Shown here in pieces: positions 8,437 to 32,568 of a DNA stretch of 64,000 nucleotides (position 1 is its first letter; every line of letters starts with the position of its first letter). This DNA is from Fibrobacter sp. (lineage in GTDB: Bacteria > Fibrobacterota > Fibrobacteria > Fibrobacterales > Fibrobacteraceae). A program made the position numbers and the translations under genes. The stretch covers positions 1-64,000 of the forward strand of contig JAAZFC010000070.1 of NCBI GenBank assembly GCA_012511955.1. Direction: 5' to 3'. The notes below the pieces were generated by a model. The model did no database searches, was not told the origin of the DNA, and worked only from the letters and a program-made list of their open reading frames with translations.

Positions 8437-9930
8437 ATGTTATTAGAATCTTTTGCAGATGAAAAACAGTTCCTGAGTTTGGCACAAAAAGCCAATGTGA
8501 TTCCCGTGGGAGTCAAAATTTTAGCAGATACTGAAACCCCGGTGTCTGTGTTGGCGCGTTTTATGGATCAGGATTCTTTTTTCCTCTTAGAATCCGTGAC
8601 GGGAGGGGAACGCTGGGGGCGTTATAGTTTTATGGGATTGCATCCCAAAGTGCGCTTGTCGGTCTATCGCGACGAAGTCGTGGTGCGCGAAGGTATCGCC
8701 CAGCAACGCTTGGCTCACCAGGGCAAGCCTTTAGAGGTGTTGCGCGAAATTATGCAGCAGTATCAGCTGGCGGAAATTCCCCAGATGCCCCGTTTTGCAG
8801 GGGGGATGGTGGGTTATATGACTTATGAAATGTCGCATTTTTTTGAACCCAAAGTGAAAAACTTGCTCCCCCCCGAAAAACCGTTGGCGGATTTTATCAT
8901 TCCCGAAATGCTCTTGATTTTCGACAATGTGGATCACACATTGAGCGTGCTTTCCTTGGCTTTTAGCCAGGGTGAAAGCGATTTGTCCCAACTCTACGCT
9001 CAAAGTGTGAAACGCCTCAACCAAGTGTTGCAAATTTTGCAAAGCCCGGCCCCCGCCATGGATGCTACGCCTAGCGAAAAAGATTTGCGCCCCCAAGCCA
9101 CCATGGCTCCAGAGGATTTTGAGGCGAGCGTAGAGAAAATCAAAGCTCATATTGCCCGCGGCGATGTGGTGCAAACGGTGTTTTCTCAAAGCTTTGTGTG
9201 CGAAGTCCCCGAAAATCTTTTGGGATTGTATCGCGCCCAGCGCCACTTGAACCCCAGCCCTTATATGTATTTTATGCGTTTGGCCGGGGTTGATCTCATA
9301 GGATCTAGCCCCGAAACCATGGTGCGCCTCGAACAGCAACGCGCTTGTTTGCGCCCCATTGCTGGGACGCGCCCCCGGGGGGAAACGCCCCAGCAAGACC
9401 TAGCTTTGGCAGATGAACTGCTCAAAGATGAAAAAGAGCGAGCGGAGCATTTGATGCTGGTAGATCTTGGGCGCAGCGAGCTGGGACGCGTGGCCTTGAC
9501 TGGCACGGTGCAAGTCAAAGACTTGATGGTGGTGGAACGCTATTCCCATGTGATGCACTTGGTGTCCGAAATCGCCGCAGAATTGGGCGATGAATACGAC
9601 GCTTTTGACTTGTTGCAATCATCTTTCCCGGCGGGAACCTTGTCGGGAGCTCCCAAAGTGCGTGCCATGGAAATCATCGCCGAGCTAGAAAACGAAGCTC
9701 GGGGCGCTTATGGCGGTGCGGTGGGTTATGTGTCTTTTGATGGCAATATGGATTTTGCCATTTGCATTCGCACCGCCGTGGTGGAAGATGGTCGTCTTTC
9801 TTTGCGTGCTGGTGCCGGAGTAGTGGCAGATTCCCACGCCCCCACCGAGAGAGAAGAAACTATAAACAAAGCTGGCGCCGTGGCTCGAGCTTTAGAACTT
9901 TTACAATCACCTTTAAAACACCAAGGTTAG
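8437..9930 (+). CDS. trpE: Anthranilate synthase component I
   Basis: The 497-residue protein converts chorismate to anthranilate using ammonia, normally supplied by TrpG. The N-terminal part carries the LLES tryptophan-feedback motif. The chorismate-binding domain fills the C-terminal half, with hallmark blocks PSPYMYF, PIAGTRPRG and FPAGTLSGAPK. An AGAGG site lies 6 bases before the ATG. It is the first structural gene behind the attenuator, and its stop lies two bases before the trpG start. Because the partner TrpG lacks its catalytic cysteine, this subunit may depend on free ammonia or on another amidotransferase. Confidence 0.95.
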   Translation: MLLESFADEKQFLSLAQKANVIPVGVKILADTETPVSVLARFMDQDSFFLLESVTGGERWGRYSFMGLHPKVRLSVYRDEVVVREGIAQQRLAHQGKPLEVLREIMQQYQLAEIPQMPRFAGGMVGYMTYEMSHFFEPKVKNLLPPEKPLADFIIPEMLLIFDNVDHTLSVLSLAFSQGESDLSQLYAQSVKRLNQVLQILQSPAPAMDATPSEKDLRPQATMAPEDFEASVEKIKAHIARGDVVQTVFSQSFVCEVPENLLGLYRAQRHLNPSPYMYFMRLAGVDLIGSSPETMVRLEQQRACLRPIAGTRPRGETPQQDLALADELLKDEKERAEHLMLVDLGRSELGRVALTGTVQVKDLMVVERYSHVMHLVSEIAAELGDEYDAFDLLQSSFPAGTLSGAPKVRAMEIIAELENEARGAYGGAVGYVSFDGNMDFAICIRTAVVEDGRLSLRAGAGVVADSHAPTEREETINKAGAVARALELLQSPLKHQG

Positions 9931-9932
9931 TT

Positions 9933-10571
9933 ATGATTTTAGTAATAGATAATTATGGCTCTTTTAGTTACAATATTGTGCAATATTTGCGCGAAATGGA
10001 CGCCGAAGTACAAGTGCGCCGCAACGACGAAGTTTCCGTGACAGAAATAGTGGATTTGTCTCCCCAAGCTATTGTGCTTAGTCCCGGTACGGGGCTCCCG
10101 GAGCAAAGTGGTGTGAGTTGGGAGCTTATGGGGGCTTTAGCAGGAAAATTACCCATTTTAGGCATAGGATTGGGGCACCATATTGTGGCGGAATATTATG
10201 GGGCTAAAATTGTAGCTGCCCCCCAACTACTGCATGGCAAAACCGTGGTGGTACAACCCCAAGCCCAAGGGATATTTGCAGGTATGCAAAGGGATTTTAA
10301 AGGCGCTTGTTACCATAGTTTGGTGGTGGATCCTGAGAGTATTCCCGCAGATTTGCAGGTGTTAGGTCAAGCAGAAAGTGGCGAAATTATGGCCTTAAGT
10401 CATAAAAAACACCCCACCATAGGCTTACAATTTCACCCCGAAGCCATAATGACCCCCATGGGAAAAAAGATTTTCCGCAACTTTTTGCAAATAATGGCCG
10501 AGTATTCAGCTAGTTCAGCAAGTTCAGTAAGCCCAGCAAGTTCTGCTAGTTCATCAGGCTTGGATAAATGA
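9933..10571 (+). CDS. trpG: Anthranilate synthase component II, catalytic Cys replaced by Gly
   Basis: A 212-residue class I glutamine amidotransferase domain lying directly between trpE and trpD. The family motif G-x-C-x-G-H-Q reads GIGLGHH here: residue 79, the nucleophilic cysteine, is Gly (codon GGA), and the next motif Gln is His83. The other two triad positions, His169 and Glu171 (FHPEA), are intact. DNYDSF is altered to DNYGSF near the N-terminus. The C-terminus carries an extra Ser/Ala-rich tail (about residues 191-208). From family knowledge, loss of the cysteine should abolish glutaminase activity while possibly retaining a structural role on TrpE. The reading frame is intact and the fold residues are kept, so this is not an obvious pseudogene. 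The ATG at 9933 is chosen because it directly follows the trpE stop. Confidence 0.88.
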   Translation: MILVIDNYGSFSYNIVQYLREMDAEVQVRRNDEVSVTEIVDLSPQAIVLSPGTGLPEQSGVSWELMGALAGKLPILGIGLGHHIVAEYYGAKIVAAPQLLHGKTVVVQPQAQGIFAGMQRDFKGACYHSLVVDPESIPADLQVLGQAESGEIMALSHKKHPTIGLQFHPEAIMTPMGKKIFRNFLQIMAEYSASSASSVSPASSASSSGLDK

Positions 10572-10581
10572 GGTAAAGCAA

Positions 10582-11601
10582 ATGCAATTCAAAGATTTTT
10601 TAAACAAAATAACCCAGGGAAACAACCTGAGCGAAAGCGAAACCTCCCAAGCGGTGGGGCAGATTTTAGAAGGACAGTGGACTTTGGCACAAATGGGAGC
10701 TTTTTTGGGCGCTTTGAGCACCAAAGGCGAAGTGGTGGACGAAGTGGCAGGAGCGGCTGGAGCCATGCGGCGCAAAGCCATACGCGTCCAAGCTCTCGGG
10801 CAAACAGTCATAGACACCTGCGGTACTGGGGGAGACGGCTCCAATACCTTTAATATATCCACTGCCACAGCTTTAGTGGTGGCGGGTGCAGGGGTGGCGG
10901 TGGCCAAACACGGCAATCGTTCTATTTCTAGTTTATGCGGTAGCGCCGATGTGCTCGAAGCTCTGGGAATCAATTTTGCCGTGGCCCCCGATGTCATGGA
11001 AAACGCCCTTAACGAAATCGGTTTATGCTTTTTGTATGCCCCCGATTATCACGGAGCCATGAAACACGCCATGCCCGTTCGCAAGGAGTTGGGAGTGCGC
11101 ACCATTTTTAATATGCTAGGCCCTTTGACCAACCCCGCCGCCGCAACTTGCCAATTAGTGGGGGTTTTTAAACCCGACTTAACGGAAATGTTCGCCCAGG
11201 TTTTAGGTCGTTTAGGAACTCGCCGTGCCATGGTGGTTCACGGACACGATGGTTTAGATGAAATCAGCTTATTTGCACCCACTAGGGTTTCGGAGCTCAA
11301 AGATGGGGTGGTAAAAACCTATGATATTGAGCCGGAACAGTGGTTTTTAGACCCTGGGGATTACGAAGACATGGTGGGAGGCGATGCGGAGCACAATGCT
11401 AAAATGCTCAGCGATGTGTTGCAAGGTAGTACCGGAGCTGCCCGCCATGTGGTGTTGCTCAATGCCGCTGCGGCTTTGGTGGTGGCCGAAAAAGCTGAAA
11501 ATATGGACGTAGGTATTAAGCTGGCTGCAGAAGCCATTGATAGCGGAGCTGCTTGGGATAAATTACAAGCATTAGTGGCATACACCAAGGAAGCATCATG
11601 A
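10582..11601 (+). CDS. trpD: Anthranilate phosphoribosyltransferase
   Basis: A 339-residue protein of standard length that transfers phosphoribose from PRPP to anthranilate. The glycine-rich PRPP-binding motif DTCGTGGDGSNTFN lies near residues 78-91, followed by the KHGNRS anthranilate/metal-binding block near residue 110. It is a stand-alone TrpD, not fused to TrpG. Its TGA stop overlaps the ATG of trpC (ATGA), indicating translational coupling. Confidence 0.96.
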   Translation: MQFKDFLNKITQGNNLSESETSQAVGQILEGQWTLAQMGAFLGALSTKGEVVDEVAGAAGAMRRKAIRVQALGQTVIDTCGTGGDGSNTFNISTATALVVAGAGVAVAKHGNRSISSLCGSADVLEALGINFAVAPDVMENALNEIGLCFLYAPDYHGAMKHAMPVRKELGVRTIFNMLGPLTNPAAATCQLVGVFKPDLTEMFAQVLGRLGTRRAMVVHGHDGLDEISLFAPTRVSELKDGVVKTYDIEPEQWFLDPGDYEDMVGGDAEHNAKMLSDVLQGSTGAARHVVLLNAAAALVVAEKAENMDVGIKLAAEAIDSGAAWDKLQALVAYTKEAS

Positions 11602-12380
11602 CTATTTTAGAACGCATTGTGGCGGATAAATTGGCAGAAGTCGCTGCACGCCAAGCCCAAACCAGCTTAAAAGAACTGGAATTAAGCGGTGCAAAACGCA
11701 CAGATTTCCGGGATTTTCATGGCGCATTGACCCAACCTGGAGTGCAAATTATTGCCGAAATCAAGCGCGCATCCCCTTCCAAAGGCGATTTGGACTTAAA
11801 TTTAGATCCTGCAAAATTGGCACAACAATACGAAGCTGGAGGAGCTGCGGCGCTTTCGGTGCTCACCGAAGGCAAGTATTTCCGTGGTTCAGATCAAGAT
11901 TTGCAGGCGGCTCGCCAAGCTACCAATATTCCGGTTTTGCGCAAAGATTTTATTTTGACGCCTTATCAAGCTTACGAAGCTTTGGCCTTGGGTGCCGACG
12001 CTATTTTATTGATTGTGCGAATTTTAAGCGATGAACAGTTGGAGGAATTGCACCAATTAGCCATAAACTTGGGTTTGGGCGTGTTGGTGGAAGTCCACGA
12101 CGAGGCGGATTTGCAAAGAACTCTATCTTTAAAACCACAATTAATAGGTATTAATAATAGAGATTTAAGTTCCTTTCACACCGATATAAACGTGGCCATG
12201 CGGGTGGCTCAGCAAGTGCAAAATGGTTTGCCCATTGCCTTGTCAGGGATAAGCAGTCTGGACGATGCTGCTGCGAATTTGCGCCAAGGATTGCGTCACT
12301 TTTTAGTGGGCGAAGCTTTAGTAAAGGCCAAAAACAGCACGGATTTTTTGCGACAACTGCGCGCTTTGCCCGAGGACTAA
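11598..12380 (+). CDS. trpC: Indole-3-glycerol phosphate synthase
   Basis: A 260-residue TIM barrel that closes carboxyphenylaminodeoxyribulose phosphate to indole-3-glycerol phosphate. The hallmark IAEIKRASPSKG appears near residues 53-64, with LRKDFI in the middle and GINNRDL toward the C-terminal half. It is a stand-alone enzyme, not fused to TrpF. The start overlaps the trpD stop by 4 bases, and trpF follows after 4 bases. Confidence 0.96.
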   Translation: MTILERIVADKLAEVAARQAQTSLKELELSGAKRTDFRDFHGALTQPGVQIIAEIKRASPSKGDLDLNLDPAKLAQQYEAGGAAALSVLTEGKYFRGSDQDLQAARQATNIPVLRKDFILTPYQAYEALALGADAILLIVRILSDEQLEELHQLAINLGLGVLVEVHDEADLQRTLSLKPQLIGINNRDLSSFHTDINVAMRVAQQVQNGLPIALSGISSLDDAAANLRQGLRHFLVGEALVKAKNSTDFLRQLRALPED

Positions 12381-12384
12381 GCTA

Positions 12385-13041
12385 ATGAGTTTACAAGTTA
12401 AAATATGTGGTTTAACCCAAGCAGAACAAGCCGCTCAATGTGCTCAATTAGGTGCCGATGCTTTGGGAGTGATTTTTTACCCTCCTAGTCCCCGTCATAT
12501 TGATTTGGTCCAAGCTACAGAAATAGTTCAAGCGGCTGCAGAAACCCCCGTGGTGGGTGTGTTTGTGAATACTTCTGTGGAGAAAATCGTGCATATTTGC
12601 CAAAGTGCAGGCATTCATTGGGTGCAATTACATGGTGCGGAATGTCCTGGGGTGGTAGCAGCCTTGCAAGAGCGAGGTTTTAGGGTGATTAAGGTTTTGC
12701 GCAGTTTAGGAGTGTCCTTAGAGCGAGACATGGGTCGCTATGCCCATGCCGATGGGATTATGGTGGAAGCGGGGCAAGGGCCTTTGCCCGGCGGCAATGG
12801 TAGTGCTTGGCAATGGGAAGAGGCTCAAGTGGTGAGTTCTCAACGACCTTTAGCCTTAGCTGGAGGCCTAAATGCTGACAATATTTTAAAGGCAGCGGTG
12901 AGTGCTCAAGCTTCGCTTTTGGATTTGAGTTCGGGGGTGGAAAAATCCCCAGGTATTAAAGATTTAACCCAGGTCGAAGAGCTTTTAACTAAAGTACAAG
13001 CCTACGAAGCTACCTGGGAACATGGAGTTATAATCAGATGA
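12385..13041 (+). CDS. trpF: Phosphoribosylanthranilate isomerase
   Basis: A 218-residue TIM barrel catalysing the Amadori rearrangement of phosphoribosylanthranilate. The N-terminal KICGLT motif supplies the catalytic cysteine (Cys8). The phosphate-binding LAGGLN block and the C-terminal [14 protein letters not shown] motif are present. The TGA stop overlaps the trpB ATG by 4 bases. Confidence 0.96.
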
Positions 13042-14237
13042 CAAAAATTATTGGAACTTATCCCAATGCCCGTGGGCATTTTGGAATTTACGGTGGACAA
13101 TATGTGGGGGAAACCCTAATGCCCGCTTTGATAGAATTAGAAAAAGCTTATGCAGCAGTGCAAAAAGATCAAAGTTTTTGGGAAGAATACCGCCAAGTTC
13201 TCGCCGATTATGTGGGGCGACCCACTAGTTTGGACTTTGCGGAGCGTTTGACAGACCATGTAGGGGGAGCGCAAATATATTTGAAACGAGAAGATCAAAA
13301 TCATACCGGAGCCCATAAGGTAAACAACACGGTGGGGCAAATCTTGTTAGCTCGGCGTATGGGCAAAACCCGGGTAATCGCCGAAACAGGAGCCGGGCAG
13401 CATGGCGTGGCCACCGCCACTTTGGCGGCGCGCTACGGCTTGGAATGTATGGTGTTCATGGGGGCCGAAGATGTGCGCCGCCAAGCGCCCAATGTCCAGC
13501 GCATGAAGCTTTTGGGGGCCGAAGTGGTGGCAGTGGATTCGGGAACGGCCACGCTGAAAGATGCCATGAACGAGGCCATGCGCTATTGGGCGGCTGCCGT
13601 TAGCGACACATTTTATGTGATCGGCACTGTGGCGGGGCCCAGCCCATATCCGCAAATAGTGCGGGATTTTCAGCGCATCATCGGCGACGAAGCTCGCAGA
13701 CAATTTATGCAAAAATTCGACGCTTTGCCCGATTTGCTAGTGGCTTGCGTGGGGGGAGGTTCCAACGCTATGGGTTTATTTTACCCTTTCTTAGACGATG
13801 ATTGTGCCATTTTGGGCATAGAAGCCGGGGGCGAAGGCGAACACACCCAACGCCATGCCGCCACATTGGGGCAGGGTAGGGTAGGCGTGCTGCACGGCTC
13901 CAAGTCTTATATGCTCCAAGATCGTTTTGGGCAAGTGGTGGAAACTCATTCCATTTCTGCGGGTTTAGATTACCCGGGCGTGGGTCCAGAGCATTCTTTG
14001 CTTAAAGATCTGGGACGGGCGCGCTATGAATCCGTTAGCGATGCCGAAGCTTTGGAAGCTTTTCAGCTTTTAGCGCGCTTGGAAGGAATTATCCCCGCTT
14101 TGGAAAGTTCCCACGCCTTGGCTGGAGCTATGCGCACCGCCAAAACCATGAAATCTTCCCAAAGGATTTTAGTCAATCTTTCCGGTCGTGGGGACAAAGA
14201 TTTAGACCACGCCCTCAGCTTAATAAATTTGGATTAG
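13038..14237 (+). CDS. trpB: Tryptophan synthase beta chain
   Basis: A 399-residue PLP enzyme that condenses indole with serine. The PLP lysine is Lys94 within HTGAHKVNN. The glycine-rich phosphate-binding GGGSNAMG motif and the [10 protein letters not shown] catalytic loop are intact. Its length and N-terminus ([11 protein letters not shown]) are those of the standard TrpB1 subfamily, which works with TrpA. trpA follows after 8 bases. Confidence 0.97.
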
Positions 14238-14245
14238 GAGTAACA

Positions 14246-15046
14246 ATGAATCGCATTTCGCAAAAATTTGCAGAGTTAAAAAATCGCCAAGAAAAAGCTT
14301 TGGTGGCATATATTACCGCCGGAGATCCAGACTATGAGCGCAGTTTAGAGCTAATTAGCGCCGCCTGTGCCAATGGCGTAGATATTTTAGAGCTGGGCGT
14401 GCCCTTTTCAGACCCCACCGCCGACGGCCCAGTTATACAAGAGGCCGCTATACGCGCCCTGTCAACGGGCATGAATATTGAAAAAAGCTTTAAAATGGTG
14501 GCGGACATTCGCGTGCGCTTTCCGCAGTTGCCCATCGTATTGTTTAGCTATTACAATCCCCTATTTCAATACGATGCGGCAGAACTGTTCGCCCGTTGCC
14601 AAAAAGTCGGGGTAGATGGGCTTTTGGTGGTGGATTTACCCCCCGAAGAAGCCCAGGAAATCACCGCACATTTCCCCAATCCCGCCGCCTTGCCATTAAT
14701 TCGCCTCGTGGCTCCCACCACCCCCGTGGAGCGCAAACAACGCATCGCCCACGATGCCCAGGGCTTTTTGTATTTAATTACCCGAACCGGCGTAACCGGC
14801 ACCGGGGGCTTAGATGTGGATTATATTGCCCACCACGCCCGAGAACTGCGCGCGCAAACCAGTGTGCCTATATGCCTTGGTTTTGGAATTAGCACTGCAA
14901 AAGACATTCGCCAACTAGCCCCCCATGCAGATGGTTTAATAGTGGGAAGTGCCTTGGTAAAATTAGTGGCGGAGCACAAAGATAACCCCGATTTAACAAA
15001 AATAATAGCCCAAGCAGTGTGTGAGTTAAAAGCTGCTTGTAAATAG
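14246..15046 (+). CDS. trpA: Tryptophan synthase alpha chain
   Basis: A 266-residue TIM barrel that cleaves indole-3-glycerol phosphate and passes indole to TrpB. The catalytic pair Glu49 (ILELGVPFSDP) and Asp60 is present at the canonical numbering, and the RTGVTG phosphate loop is near residue 178. AGGAG precedes the ATG. It is the last trp gene. No clear terminator separates it from rpsD, which begins 89 bases later. Confidence 0.96.
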   Translation: MNRISQKFAELKNRQEKALVAYITAGDPDYERSLELISAACANGVDILELGVPFSDPTADGPVIQEAAIRALSTGMNIEKSFKMVADIRVRFPQLPIVLFSYYNPLFQYDAAELFARCQKVGVDGLLVVDLPPEEAQEITAHFPNPAALPLIRLVAPTTPVERKQRIAHDAQGFLYLITRTGVTGTGGLDVDYIAHHARELRAQTSVPICLGFGISTAKDIRQLAPHADGLIVGSALVKLVAEHKDNPDLTKIIAQAVCELKAACK

Positions 15047-21846: not shown

Positions 21847-22521
21847 ATGAATATAAGGCGGGAGGGTCTCCACTTCAAAATTGCTGAGTTATATAAAAAT
21901 AATGCTATGAAAGTCTATAGAGTATGTTATAGGTATGTAAAAAGCCATCAAATAGCCCTTGAACTACGGCAAGAGGTTTTTTTCAGGGTTTTTAAAAAAT
22001 ATCATACATTAAGAAATTTAAAAGCTGTGAATTCATGGTTGTATAGGATTGCTGTAAATATCAGTTTAGATTATTTAAGGAGTCAAAAAAGACGGCCTAT
22101 TTTGATTTCATTGGGTGATTCTGGGTCTCCACAACATGAAGTTAAAGATAATACGCCAACTGCTGATAAGCAGTTGGAGTTAGAAAGTGAATTAAATTAT
22201 CACTTAAGGGAATTAGACAATTTTACTAGGGAAGTAGTAGATTTGCGTTATGTTATGGGTATGACTTTACGAGAAATAGCTAAGCATAAAGGCGTTTCCA
22301 CTAGACAAGTGCGCAATTATATGTCGAGTTTTGATCGAAAAATGCGTAAATACCGTAGGGTTATTGGCCATAATGGCCAAAGAAAAGGTAACTTTGCTAA
22401 ATGCCCTTACTCTTATTCATCTTATGCACAACCATTGTCGCTACGGCGACCACCTGGGAATCGTGGTCTGCACCATACGACTATCACGGCGCTACATTCA
22501 GTGAGGGAGAAATATGGATAG
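21847..22521 (+). CDS. ECF-type RNA polymerase sigma factor with out-of-frame C-terminal extension
   Basis: The 224-residue protein has sigma region 2 at about residues 12-80 (ELRQEVFFRVFKKY, then NSWLYRIAVNISLDYLR) and region 4 at about 115-170 (TREVVDLRYVMGMTLREIA, then TRQVRNYMSSFDRKM). The recognisable sigma ends near residue 178. The last 45 or so residues are read through the beginning of the next gene in another frame and look non-homologous. AAGGAGCTGAAATG gives a strong start. No anti-sigma gene follows; instead a secreted propeller protein overlaps by 121 bases, suggesting coupled expression. Confidence 0.85.
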   Translation: MNIRREGLHFKIAELYKNNAMKVYRVCYRYVKSHQIALELRQEVFFRVFKKYHTLRNLKAVNSWLYRIAVNISLDYLRSQKRRPILISLGDSGSPQHEVKDNTPTADKQLELESELNYHLRELDNFTREVVDLRYVMGMTLREIAKHKGVSTRQVRNYMSSFDRKMRKYRRVIGHNGQRKGNFAKCPYSYSSYAQPLSLRRPPGNRGLHHTTITALHSVREKYG

Positions 22522-24632
22522 CTACTGATGGTGGCCTGCGTTCAATAGATTTAAAGACGGATAAAACCCAGACTTTTGTCGCATCCGATGGCTTAGAAGA
22601 AACAAGCCAAGTTGCAGTTGCAGTGGATGAAGAACAAAATGTTATAGTGCTTTCAAAGTCAGGGCTTTTGGCGCAATTAAAAAAAGGTCAAAAAAGATTT
22701 AATGTATTGTCGCGGTCTATGGTGGAAAAAGCTGATATTCCATTAAAAAATGGCTTACATTTACGACCAGGTTTTGCTGTGATAGCTTTTGAGCATCGCG
22801 TGGTAATTTTTGATTTAAAAAAAAGAACAGCTGTTATCACTTTTACGCAAATGGCAAGTTTTAATGCCATTCAAGAGAAGATTGTTGGTATTGTTTTGCA
22901 CAAGGATACCCTTTTTGTAGCAAATTCGCAAAAAGTTTTTAAGCGTTTTATAGATTTTCCCAACTTGGCAAGCGATCTCCGTTTAGCAGATCCATCAACT
23001 TGGGATGAACTAAAGCATCAATCGCCAAAAGTGGGAAGCATATTTTATGACCATAAAAAAGGCATACAAGTGAGCGAGTATAAGGCTTTTACCTATAGCT
23101 TGAGTAATGGCAAATTCGATCAGGTTATCACAGATGAAAAAGTAGGCGTGTGGGTTAATGGAGATTCTCTAAAGTTTAAAGATTTTTGGGATGAAGATGA
23201 AGTGTTTCTTCCCCAATGGATGGGAGTCAATCCCTTAGATTCATGCAGGTGGATTTTGAGTTCCGATCAAATTTGGCAGCATTGTAAGGGCAAAACAACT
23301 TTATGGAAAGATCCTAACGAGTTTCCTGCGGGAGTGGTAACCACAGTTAGCGTGCGCCCGGGGATAGAATTTGTGGCTTGGATGCACCCTTATCAAGTGA
23401 AGATTCCAGTAAATGGTGATTTTATAGCTTATGATTTTCGCTATGGTTCCCACTATTTCGATGATTCTAAAGGGCAAGATGCCAACCAGCCGCTTAAAAC
23501 CATGGTAATTAACGATGCGGGTTTTGTTTTTACAGGAACATGGGGTGGAAGTGTGTTTTCTCGAAGTCCCGACGACTATTTTTATAGAAATTTTCATAAA
23601 GCCAATGGAGACTGTATGGATTCATGGTCTGGGGATTATTCTATAGTGCGTGGGGTGAACAAGACATTAAATGAAAATACCATGTTCTTTAGCTATTGGG
23701 GTGAGACGGGAGAAAATAATTATGGCATAGCCTGGTTAGATGATGAGCATAATCTCTATTGCGGCAATGATATAGGTTCTTCCATGGTTTCTGGTCCCAT
23801 ATTATCCATTAAAAATAGCAAAGGTAATTACGATGTTTTTTCGGTCTATGAACATGGTATCGGCGCTTGGGATGGAGATATGGATTTTATGACTTTGGCG
23901 CCTACGAGAAGCAAAGAGTTAAAAGTAGTAAAGCGTCAAAAAGTATATACTGGCGCTTTAGGTTACGCTCGAGATATTAGCTGGGACACCAAAAACGGAC
24001 GCTTATGGTTAGCAGGGATTTCGCATTTGGGTTATTACGAACCTGGTACAGATTCGGTGATTATTCCTTTGAGTATTCGCGGCATAGAGTCTGCTGAATA
24101 CACTGCTTTAGAGGTGGATAGACATGGTGATTTGTGGGTGGGTACTCGTAGTCATGGAGTTTTTCACATTAAATTGCAAAATAACATGGCTGATTCTTTA
24201 CTTGCCACCAATATTACTAGCAAGGACGGTTTACTTTCAAACACCGTTTTAGATTTAGCCATAGACGGTGCTTTAGGTAGGGTGATTTTTGCTCATGATA
24301 TAGGAGTTTCGGTTTACCACACATTTGCTGTGCGTTTCGATGAGGGGTATTTGGAAGAAAACTCAAAACCCATTAAAGTTTATCCCAACCCCTTTAGGCC
24401 AGGAAAACATCAATATGTTACCATAGATAATATTAATTCCACTGGAGCCTTTAATTTATTCAACTCCGCAGGCAAAGTGGTAAAAACATTTTCTAGTGCA
24501 GAAATGGTGGGTGGCGGTGTGAAATGGGATGGTATTATGGCCAATGGAGAACTTGCGCCTCCAGGGGTTTATCATTATGTGGTACGGCATAATAACAAAG
24601 CCCATCGCGGACGACTTTTGATAATTCGCTAA
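22401..24632 (+). CDS. Secreted beta-propeller protein with FlgD/T9SS-like C-terminal tail
   Basis: A 743-residue exported protein: signal peptide of about 17 residues, then repeated segments resembling two-component-regulator-propeller (ligand-binding) repeats, such as IWIATDGGLRSIDL, RLWLAGISHLGYYE and DLWVGTRSHGVFHI. The last 85 residues form an Ig-like domain, starting at KVYPNPFRPGK and containing GAFNLFNSAGKVVK and GVYHYVVRHN. This type of tail is found at the C-terminus of FlgD and of many type IX-secreted proteins. It was probably exported to the surface. The start overlaps the sigma gene by 121 bases, with an AAAAGG site upstream. Confidence 0.82.
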   Translation: MPLLLFILCTTIVATATTWESWSAPYDYHGATFSEGEIWIATDGGLRSIDLKTDKTQTFVASDGLEETSQVAVAVDEEQNVIVLSKSGLLAQLKKGQKRFNVLSRSMVEKADIPLKNGLHLRPGFAVIAFEHRVVIFDLKKRTAVITFTQMASFNAIQEKIVGIVLHKDTLFVANSQKVFKRFIDFPNLASDLRLADPSTWDELKHQSPKVGSIFYDHKKGIQVSEYKAFTYSLSNGKFDQVITDEKVGVWVNGDSLKFKDFWDEDEVFLPQWMGVNPLDSCRWILSSDQIWQHCKGKTTLWKDPNEFPAGVVTTVSVRPGIEFVAWMHPYQVKIPVNGDFIAYDFRYGSHYFDDSKGQDANQPLKTMVINDAGFVFTGTWGGSVFSRSPDDYFYRNFHKANGDCMDSWSGDYSIVRGVNKTLNENTMFFSYWGETGENNYGIAWLDDEHNLYCGNDIGSSMVSGPILSIKNSKGNYDVFSVYEHGIGAWDGDMDFMTLAPTRSKELKVVKRQKVYTGALGYARDISWDTKNGRLWLAGISHLGYYEPGTDSVIIPLSIRGIESAEYTALEVDRHGDLWVGTRSHGVFHIKLQNNMADSLLATNITSKDGLLSNTVLDLAIDGALGRVIFAHDIGVSVYHTFAVRFDEGYLEENSKPIKVYPNPFRPGKHQYVTIDNINSTGAFNLFNSAGKVVKTFSSAEMVGGGVKWDGIMANGELAPPGVYHYVVRHNNKAHRGRLLIIR

Positions 24633-30456: not shown

Positions 30457-32568
30457 GTGTATAGTCAAGAAGCTCAAAAAATAATTGAGGGATGTAATCC
30501 CGCCCAGTTAGAAGCCATCGTTCATAAGCACGATGAAAGTGGTCCTTTGTTAATTTTAGCCGGAGCTGGTTCTGGCAAAACAGCGGTGCTTACTCGCAGA
30601 ATGCAGTGGCTGATTCAATGTGAAAAGGTAGATGCGCAAAACATTTTAGGTTTGACATTTACAGCTAAAGCTGCTGCAGAAATGCGGGAACGTTTGACCA
30701 CTGCCACGCCTTTGTTGTGTACTTTTCACTCTTTAGCATTAAAATTGTTGCGCGAAGAGCATAAAGGCAAAACTCATTGGCAAAGACTAGGCTTTTCCCA
30801 AGCGCCCATGCCTGTAGAGCAAAATTTGGGGCAATGGATAAATCATCTAATATCTTGTGGTTTGCAAGGCAAAAAGGTTGACCGCGCAGATCTTTTTAAT
30901 CCTGATTTTAAAATAGATGCTAAAGTTTTGCAAAAAATAAGGCGACCATTTTTAGAAAGTGGGAAAATATCTTTTGACGATATGATCTGGCTCGCCATAA
31001 ATCTATTAGAAGAGTTTCCTGAAGTGCGGGCTGCGGTGCAAAAGCAATGGCGCTACTGTTTAGTAGATGAATATCAAGATATTAACCCCGAACAATATCG
31101 CTTGGTGCGCCTAATTGTGGGGGATAGCCCGAATTTATTTGTGGTGGGCGATGATGATCAGGCGATTTATGGATTTAGGGGAGCCGATGTGCGCAATATT
31201 TTGCGTTTTCAAGATGATTTTCCCCAGTGTAAGGTGGTGAAGTTAGAGCTGAATTATCGTTCCACCCCAGCCATTTTAGATTTAGCAAATAAAATATTCA
31301 CCAACAAGCCTGTAGCTTTGCGTAAATCACTGCGGGCTGGAAGCAATCGCAGCGATGCTTTATTTAAAGAAAACAGCAAAGTTGAGTTGTGGAAATGCGA
31401 AAATTCTGTGATAGAATTTGATAAAATGGTGCAAGCTATGGAGGCATGGAGGGCTCAATATGATTTGCCTTGGTCTGCTTTTGCCATATTAGTGCGTTTT
31501 CATCGTTTGGGGGAATGGTACGAGGCTGCTTTGCGCCAGCGGAAAATCCCCGTGGGTGAAGAAGAGGAAGGAGTTGCCATAGAAACTGTGCATGCCTCTA
31601 AGGGTTTACAATATCCTATTGTGTTTTATGCGGGAATTGCCGAGGGGTTAACGCCTTCTTTACCTCGTACGCAGAAAAAAGCTAAAATTGAAGCTCATCA
31701 CGAAGAAGAACGCCGTTTATTTTATGTGGGGGTAACTAGAGCAGAATGTCGCTTAGTTTTATTATTTTGTAAACTACGGCATTGGCAAGGTGCTTTGCAA
31801 AACTTTAAACCATCTCGTTTTTTAACAGTGGTGGAGCATAAGGCTTCAAGGAGAACAAATATGCTGCTATTTAGTAAGTTGATTCGAGCTATACAGATTA
31901 TTGCGTTTATGTTTGCAGGTGTAGTGCAAGAGTTTGTTTTGCGCATTTTTGGTAAAGCTGATCAGGCTTGGATAGACAGAAAGCTTTTAAACTGGTCTGC
32001 TTTTACCACAAAAGTTGTGGGTTTTGATTTTGCCACGGTGGGAAAAGAAAATTTAGAATTAGTGGATTGGAGTCGCCCCGTATTTATAGTTTGCAATCAC
32101 CAATCTTTTTTAGATATTCCAGTATTGCTGCAGGGGCTGAATCGCCGTTTTGGATTTATCGCCAAAAAGGAACTAAATGCCATACCGCTTTTAGGGTATT
32201 GGATGCGCAAAATAGGCTGTTTGATTATTGATAGAAAAAAAAGAGGGATAGGTAAAGAAATTGCGCAAAATTTAAAAAATTCTAAAATGGTACCTCATAT
32301 TGCAATATTTCCAGAAGGTACCAGAAGCACTGATGGGAATTTAGCTGCTTTTAAATCAGGTGCTTTTCGTTATGCAGTAGATTTTGAAGGGACAATTTTA
32401 CCTGTTGTGTTAAAAAATACCCGCGCAGGTTGGGAAGATAGAAGCTCTTTTAAAAATAGTGTAAAAGGCGAATGTATGGTTTTGGCTCCATTAGATATGA
32501 AAGTAAAGCCTATGAATCATAAAGATCTACAGGCTTTAGTAAGGGAGACAATGAAAAAAAGCTTATAA
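30457..32568 (+). CDS. UvrD/Rep-type helicase fused in frame to PlsC-like acyltransferase
   Basis: A 703-residue frame. Residues 1-460 form a superfamily 1 helicase with Walker A AGAGSGKT, LTFTAKAAAEMRERL, Walker B VDEYQD, GDDDQAIYGFRGA, ELNYRS, TVHASKGLQYPIV and FYVGVTRAE. It is clearly shorter than normal UvrD, with a reduced 1B/2B region. Residues 469-703 form a 1-acyl-glycerol-3-phosphate acyltransferase with a membrane segment, NHQSFLD and FPEGTRS motifs. No stop separates them. The acyltransferase has its own AAGGAG site (31848-31853) and ATG at 31861, so both a fusion and a free acyltransferase may be made. The start is GTG at 30457. Confidence 0.85.
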   Translation: MYSQEAQKIIEGCNPAQLEAIVHKHDESGPLLILAGAGSGKTAVLTRRMQWLIQCEKVDAQNILGLTFTAKAAAEMRERLTTATPLLCTFHSLALKLLREEHKGKTHWQRLGFSQAPMPVEQNLGQWINHLISCGLQGKKVDRADLFNPDFKIDAKVLQKIRRPFLESGKISFDDMIWLAINLLEEFPEVRAAVQKQWRYCLVDEYQDINPEQYRLVRLIVGDSPNLFVVGDDDQAIYGFRGADVRNILRFQDDFPQCKVVKLELNYRSTPAILDLANKIFTNKPVALRKSLRAGSNRSDALFKENSKVELWKCENSVIEFDKMVQAMEAWRAQYDLPWSAFAILVRFHRLGEWYEAALRQRKIPVGEEEEGVAIETVHASKGLQYPIVFYAGIAEGLTPSLPRTQKKAKIEAHHEEERRLFYVGVTRAECRLVLLFCKLRHWQGALQNFKPSRFLTVVEHKASRRTNMLLFSKLIRAIQIIAFMFAGVVQEFVLRIFGKADQAWIDRKLLNWSAFTTKVVGFDFATVGKENLELVDWSRPVFIVCNHQSFLDIPVLLQGLNRRFGFIAKKELNAIPLLGYWMRKIGCLIIDRKKRGIGKEIAQNLKNSKMVPHIAIFPEGTRSTDGNLAAFKSGAFRYAVDFEGTILPVVLKNTRAGWEDRSSFKNSVKGECMVLAPLDMKVKPMNHKDLQALVRETMKKSL
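31861..32568 (+). CDS. plsC: Internal start: 1-acyl-sn-glycerol-3-phosphate acyltransferase (alternative product)
   Basis: The ATG at 31861 follows a perfect AAGGAG with 7-base spacing inside the helicase-acyltransferase frame. The product would be 235 residues, beginning MLLFSKLIRAIQIIAF with a normal membrane-anchored PlsC N-terminus and including NHQSFLD and FPEGTRS. This is the natural length of a stand-alone PlsC, which acylates lysophosphatidate in phospholipid synthesis. Production as a separate protein is an inference from these signals. Confidence 0.6.
   Translation: MLLFSKLIRAIQIIAFMFAGVVQEFVLRIFGKADQAWIDRKLLNWSAFTTKVVGFDFATVGKENLELVDWSRPVFIVCNHQSFLDIPVLLQGLNRRFGFIAKKELNAIPLLGYWMRKIGCLIIDRKKRGIGKEIAQNLKNSKMVPHIAIFPEGTRSTDGNLAAFKSGAFRYAVDFEGTILPVVLKNTRAGWEDRSSFKNSVKGECMVLAPLDMKVKPMNHKDLQALVRETMKKSL

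Follow-up and report, generated by a model that had tools for sequence, protein, structure and literature searches.

A TrpG without its catalytic cysteine in a Fibrobacter genome with widespread glutaminase loss, and a possible switch to free ammonia

Glutamine channelling is textbook knowledge for the synthesis of anthranilate, CTP, GMP, purines, carbamoyl phosphate, histidine and NAD. How then does an anthranilate synthase work whose glutaminase subunit has lost its nucleophile? The question is raised by a trpG gene of Fibrobacter sp. (assembly GCA_012511955.1, contig JAAZFC010000070.1), which lies in the stretch of 64,000 nucleotides analysed here and called the window. The assembly is a draft of 150 contigs with a completeness of 96.85%.

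The TrpG of the window

The trpG gene, an uninterrupted frame of 212 codons, lies next to its partner trpE (Table 1), and its product scores 187 bits against TIGR00566 (cut-off 121) and 163 bits against PF00117. In class I amidotransferases the cysteine of the GxCxGxQ motif forms a glutaminyl thioester and the glutamine of GHQ touches the substrate. Both residues are absent from the window TrpG: where the aligned relatives read LPILGVCLGHQ it reads LPILGIGLGHH, with Gly79 in place of the nucleophile and His83 in place of the glutamine. The original prediction of a GIGLGHH motif is thus confirmed down to the codons. It had also described the rest of the triad as intact at His169 and Glu171; these residues are indeed retained, but the numbering was one too high and the correct positions are His168 and Glu170.

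Table 1. Features of the trp operon in the window
Feature	Position	Strand	Evidence
trpE, synthase retained, conserved motifs kept	8437..9930	+	TIGR00564, PF00425; alignment with E. coli
trpG, putative pseudo-glutaminase subunit of anthranilate synthase	9933..10571	+	TIGR00566 and PF00117 matches; sequence
trpG codon 79, GGA (Gly); Cys in relatives	10167..10169	+	sequence, alignment
trpG codon 83, CAT (His); Gln in relatives	10179..10181	+	sequence, alignment
TrpG His168-Pro169-Glu170, remainder of the triad, kept	10434..10442	+	sequence
9-bp tandem repeat encoding the Ser/Ala-rich C-terminal tail of TrpG; none in relatives	10505..10553	+	sequence, alignment
trpD	10582..11601	+	ORF; 74% identical to G010 copy
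trpC (by reading)	11598..12380	+	ORF
trpF (by reading)	12385..13041	+	ORF
trpB (by reading)	13038..14237	+	ORF
trpA (by reading)	14246..15046	+	ORF

Cys79 and Gln83 are kept in 32 of 32 other TrpGs in the alignment. At 42 columns that are near-invariant among these proteins the window TrpG differs six times (D9G, P53T, C79G, Q83H, R126C and A145G), and most relatives' TrpGs do not differ at all. An AlphaFold2 model calculated with a four-row alignment predicts an ordinary fold (pLDDT 86), in which Gly79 sits between a strand ending at residue 78 and a helix beginning at residue 80. A second TrpG or PabA was not found, as PF00117 matches only the window TrpG and PyrG in the whole genome. A search of genome and viral contigs with the query P0001 returned no close relatives, only distant homologues that bear the cysteine, or none. 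Given the established class I chemistry and the residue losses, glutaminase activity should be lost. We therefore regard the window TrpG as a pseudo-glutaminase that would be unable to form the glutaminyl thioester and that probably does not hold glutamine well.

The trpEGDCFBA run itself is complete and open in the window. Between the window genome (G000) and the relative G010 the identity is 53% for TrpG and 67% for TrpE; for the intact pair G010/G023 the values are 70% and 60%. By this comparison the divergence of the window TrpG is accelerated relative to TrpE. The pair, with the nucleophile gone and the synthase kept, has a sequence pattern like that of carbamoyl-phosphate synthetase I (CPS I). 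Two other open reading frames of the window may be recorded here. A single frame at 30457-32568 fuses a UvrD-type helicase with a PlsC-like acyltransferase domain, and a 743-aa frame at 22401-24632 has no Pfam match.

Glutaminase units in the rest of the genome and in relatives

The loss in TrpG is real, but it is not the isolated oddity it had first seemed to be; the pattern is genome-wide and recurs in the family. Of the glutaminase units of the window genome, seven are dead, truncated or absent, and their partner synthases persist and are conserved. The nucleophile site of PyrG reads FLAIGEAMYC, with the catalytic cysteine changed to glycine, and PurL reads TLGVGNGAQM where E. coli and the intact relatives have LGVCNGCQM. 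CarA has only 146 aa, matches PF00988 alone and stops where the glutaminase domain should start, and CarB is full length. GuaA keeps its ATP-pyrophosphatase behind a remnant of the N-terminal glutaminase. HisH was not found in the genome, and HisF is present. In NadE, the nitrilase-type glutaminase of which has a fold unrelated to class I, the cysteine and the first glutamate are both replaced by glycine; an explanation limited to class I was therefore dropped. The class II enzymes PurF, GlmS and an AsnB-like protein still have Cys1.

Some neighbouring observations stand apart from this list. GlmS (L074, G000:C15) reads LEYLGYDSAG where relatives have LEYRGYDSAG, a change of a conserved arginine near the class II active site. 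PabB (L034, 1337-2374, minus strand, G000:C1) has lost the last third of its chorismate-binding domain and runs directly into PabC. Since PabB is shortened and there is no PabA, the synthesis of pABA is probably broken. Near nadE, an open frame of more than 1000 residues (L121, 5953-9003), beginning with LGLDLGVTSIGWALV, resembles Cas9 by eye only.

An assembly in this many contigs invites the suspicion of sequencing errors, or of a glycine codon that is read as cysteine. A base-calling error is very unlikely, however, because TrpG departs at six positions and like losses are found in genes on other contigs. Among TrpG, PyrG, PurL and NadE the glycine codons at the four lost cysteines are one GGA, two GGC and one GGG, and this mixture rules out the recoding of one glycine codon. 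The cysteine codons of PurF and GlmS are normal, and neither artefact would account for domain deletions or for the serine, alanine and arginine found at these sites in other genomes. We give both next to no weight. That glycine is so often the replacement might be due to backbone strain at the nucleophile elbow.

Decay is confined to the glutaminase parts. Between G000 and G010 the synthase part of PurL is 63% and its glutaminase part 48% identical, and the corresponding values for PyrG are 75% and 46%. In most relatives with an intact PurL cysteine the glutaminase part is instead the more conserved one, again in comparison with G010. Together with the values for TrpE and TrpG, these identities indicate that the synthases are constrained and the glutaminases less so.

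Roughly four further lineages of the same family have eroded glutaminases and are nested among intact relatives. The calls of dead and intact sites were made by eye from alignments, and as the genomes are drafts the absence of a gene is not proof. G002 has a PurL with C to S and HPE to HVD, a GuaA with C to S and a NadE with C to A; CarA and HisH were not found in it. In G005 and G014 PurL has C to G, CarA is reduced to its N-domain, the GuaA glutaminase is deleted or gutted, and neither HisH nor TrpG was found; G014 has in addition a PyrG with C to R and a NadE with C to G. GuaA of G003 and G018 is without a glutaminase domain and, at 39% identity, is perhaps a replaced gene. In G003, moreover, NadE has C to S and no glutaminase half was found for PyrG. 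G006 has a CarA with C to G and HPE to FPD and a NadE with C to G, the latter change being also seen in G013. G023 and G026 share a PyrG with C to G and a PurF with C1 to S. In a sister family, NadE of G038 misses the nucleophile segment. Five relatives have a short NadE of 242-251 aa, and TrpG, CarA and HisH are entirely missing in some relatives. A tree built from the synthase domains alone, on which several branches are weak, requires by parsimony five changes of the class I state. G036 (5% contamination, with trimmed copies beside full second copies) was left out of the counts. As a separate observation, G023 carries second, more distant copies of PyrG and PurF with an intact cysteine beside the cysteine-less ones (L061 and L095 against L076 and L102), possibly a re-acquired glutaminase function.

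Free ammonia as the nitrogen donor

We suggest, with a probability of roughly 0.78, that the genome as a whole is committed to high ammonia and that TrpG is one part of this change. TrpE, CarB, PyrG, GuaA, PurL, HisF and NadE are able to use ammonia in vitro. We infer from the sequences that the lineage would live on abundant external ammonia, assimilated via glutamate dehydrogenase, and that relaxed selection would then be the cause of the loss of activity. As ammonia is abundant the glutaminase part would be dispensable wherever the synthase takes ammonia, and it could be lost by a point change of the nucleophile or by deletion of the domain. TrpE would combine chorismate with free ammonia to yield anthranilate, and TrpG would remain beside it as a partner in decay or with a structural role. 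Class II steps (GlmS, PurF) are retained. The isomerase of GlmS does not use free ammonia, so GlmS should keep its glutaminase, and it does. PurF speaks against the proposal, since ammonia is a substrate for this enzyme in vitro as well and it nevertheless keeps Cys1. The original prediction holds in part: that TrpG should no longer hydrolyse glutamine follows from established chemistry, and the use of free ammonia by TrpE gains strong though indirect support from the genome-wide glutaminase losses with synthases kept and from the failure to find glutamate synthase, AmtB and PII. For Fibrobacter succinogenes, ammonia serves as the only source of nitrogen (PMC10308913).

With GdhA assimilating abundant ammonia, glutamate synthase, AmtB and PII would become dispensable as well. 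Each of the six eroded genomes (G000, G002, G003, G005, G006 and G014) has GdhA and GlnRS. In the first genome set, in which the link was noticed, GltB, AmtB and PII were found in 0 of 6 eroded genomes vs 7 of 7 intact ones, and eight intact relatives with a completeness of at least 90% have all three. The second set is the sole forward test and its outcome was mixed, several genomes being too incomplete to judge. G009, complete and intact, has all three genes; G020 (88% complete) has intact glutaminases yet lacks them; G023 and G026 have AmtB and PII despite a dead PyrG; and the f2 genomes have GltB and lack AmtB and PII. G020, G023 and G026 are thus misfits to the proposal. Across 21 genomes, with kinship ignored, Fisher's test gives p = 8.5e-4; a kinship-aware test offers four pairs, nearly all in the same direction, a number too small to reach 0.05. 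The link is suggestive. That several lineages have independently dropped the glutamine donor in most biosynthetic amidotransferases, together with GltB, AmtB and PII, and supply the synthesis of amino acids, nucleotides and NAD with free ammonia appears likely to us, if slightly less so than the commitment of this one genome.

Other causes can be envisaged. Retention of TrpG might serve the structure or the allosteric control of TrpE, whether glutamine comes from another source or from none; this is compatible with a switch to ammonia. The gene remains in its operon, 36 of the 42 near-invariant columns are kept and the fold is confidently predicted; on the other hand TrpG diverges faster than TrpE, and in the same genome CarA and GuaA have simply lost the domain. 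We consider such a role possible but doubtful. Salvage would demand that the cell imports tryptophan, nucleotides and further products and that whole pathways are dying, with the glutaminase sites by chance the first to go. The truncated PabB would fit, as would the relatives in which TrpG, CarA and HisH are missing outright, but the trp operon is open, TrpE and TrpD are conserved, and PurL, PyrG, GuaA and NadE have intact synthase parts that exceed their glutaminase parts in conservation, all of which makes salvage unlikely. Still harder to credit is a natural, acivicin-like glutamine antimetabolite that poisons the catalytic cysteine and so favoured glutaminase-free enzymes: the losses do concentrate in the triad and nitrilase-type cysteine enzymes and mostly spare class II, but the missing GltB, AmtB and PII would be left unexplained.

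Relation to known ammonia-dependent enzymes

If the switch to ammonia is correct, these lineages should depend ecologically on high ammonia. The graded set of genomes, intact at one end and largely free of glutaminases at the other, would reveal when channelling is dispensable, and natural ammonia-only enzymes would become available for comparison. Such genes should, as a caution, not be annotated as glutamine-hydrolysing. Single ammonia-dependent amidotransferases are known already; for a genome-wide or convergent loss of glutaminases in bacteria we found no account in the open-access literature, a weak sign that such a switch is new.

By profile, fold, operon position and the His and Glu of the triad the window protein resembles the TrpG/PabA subunits of known structure (1i7q, 1qdl, 8rp0), from which it differs by the absence of the catalytic cysteine and of Gln83 and by its faster divergence. 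E. coli NadE, annotated as NH3-dependent, makes NAD from ammonia, as is predicted here; however, it has no glutaminase domain, whereas NadE of the window genome has the domain with Cys and Glu replaced. A further parallel comes from animals. CPS I of land vertebrates lost the cysteine and runs on ammonia, and fish show intermediate steps (PMC7657897). In CPS I, as in the altered CPS III of Alcolapia fish (PMC7657897), the triad cysteine or glutamine-binding residues are lost and the synthase works on free ammonia. There, however, the change concerns a single enzyme, in an animal organ devoted to detoxification, whereas here, as far as sequences can tell, it concerns most amidotransferases of a bacterium, one of them with an unrelated glutaminase fold.
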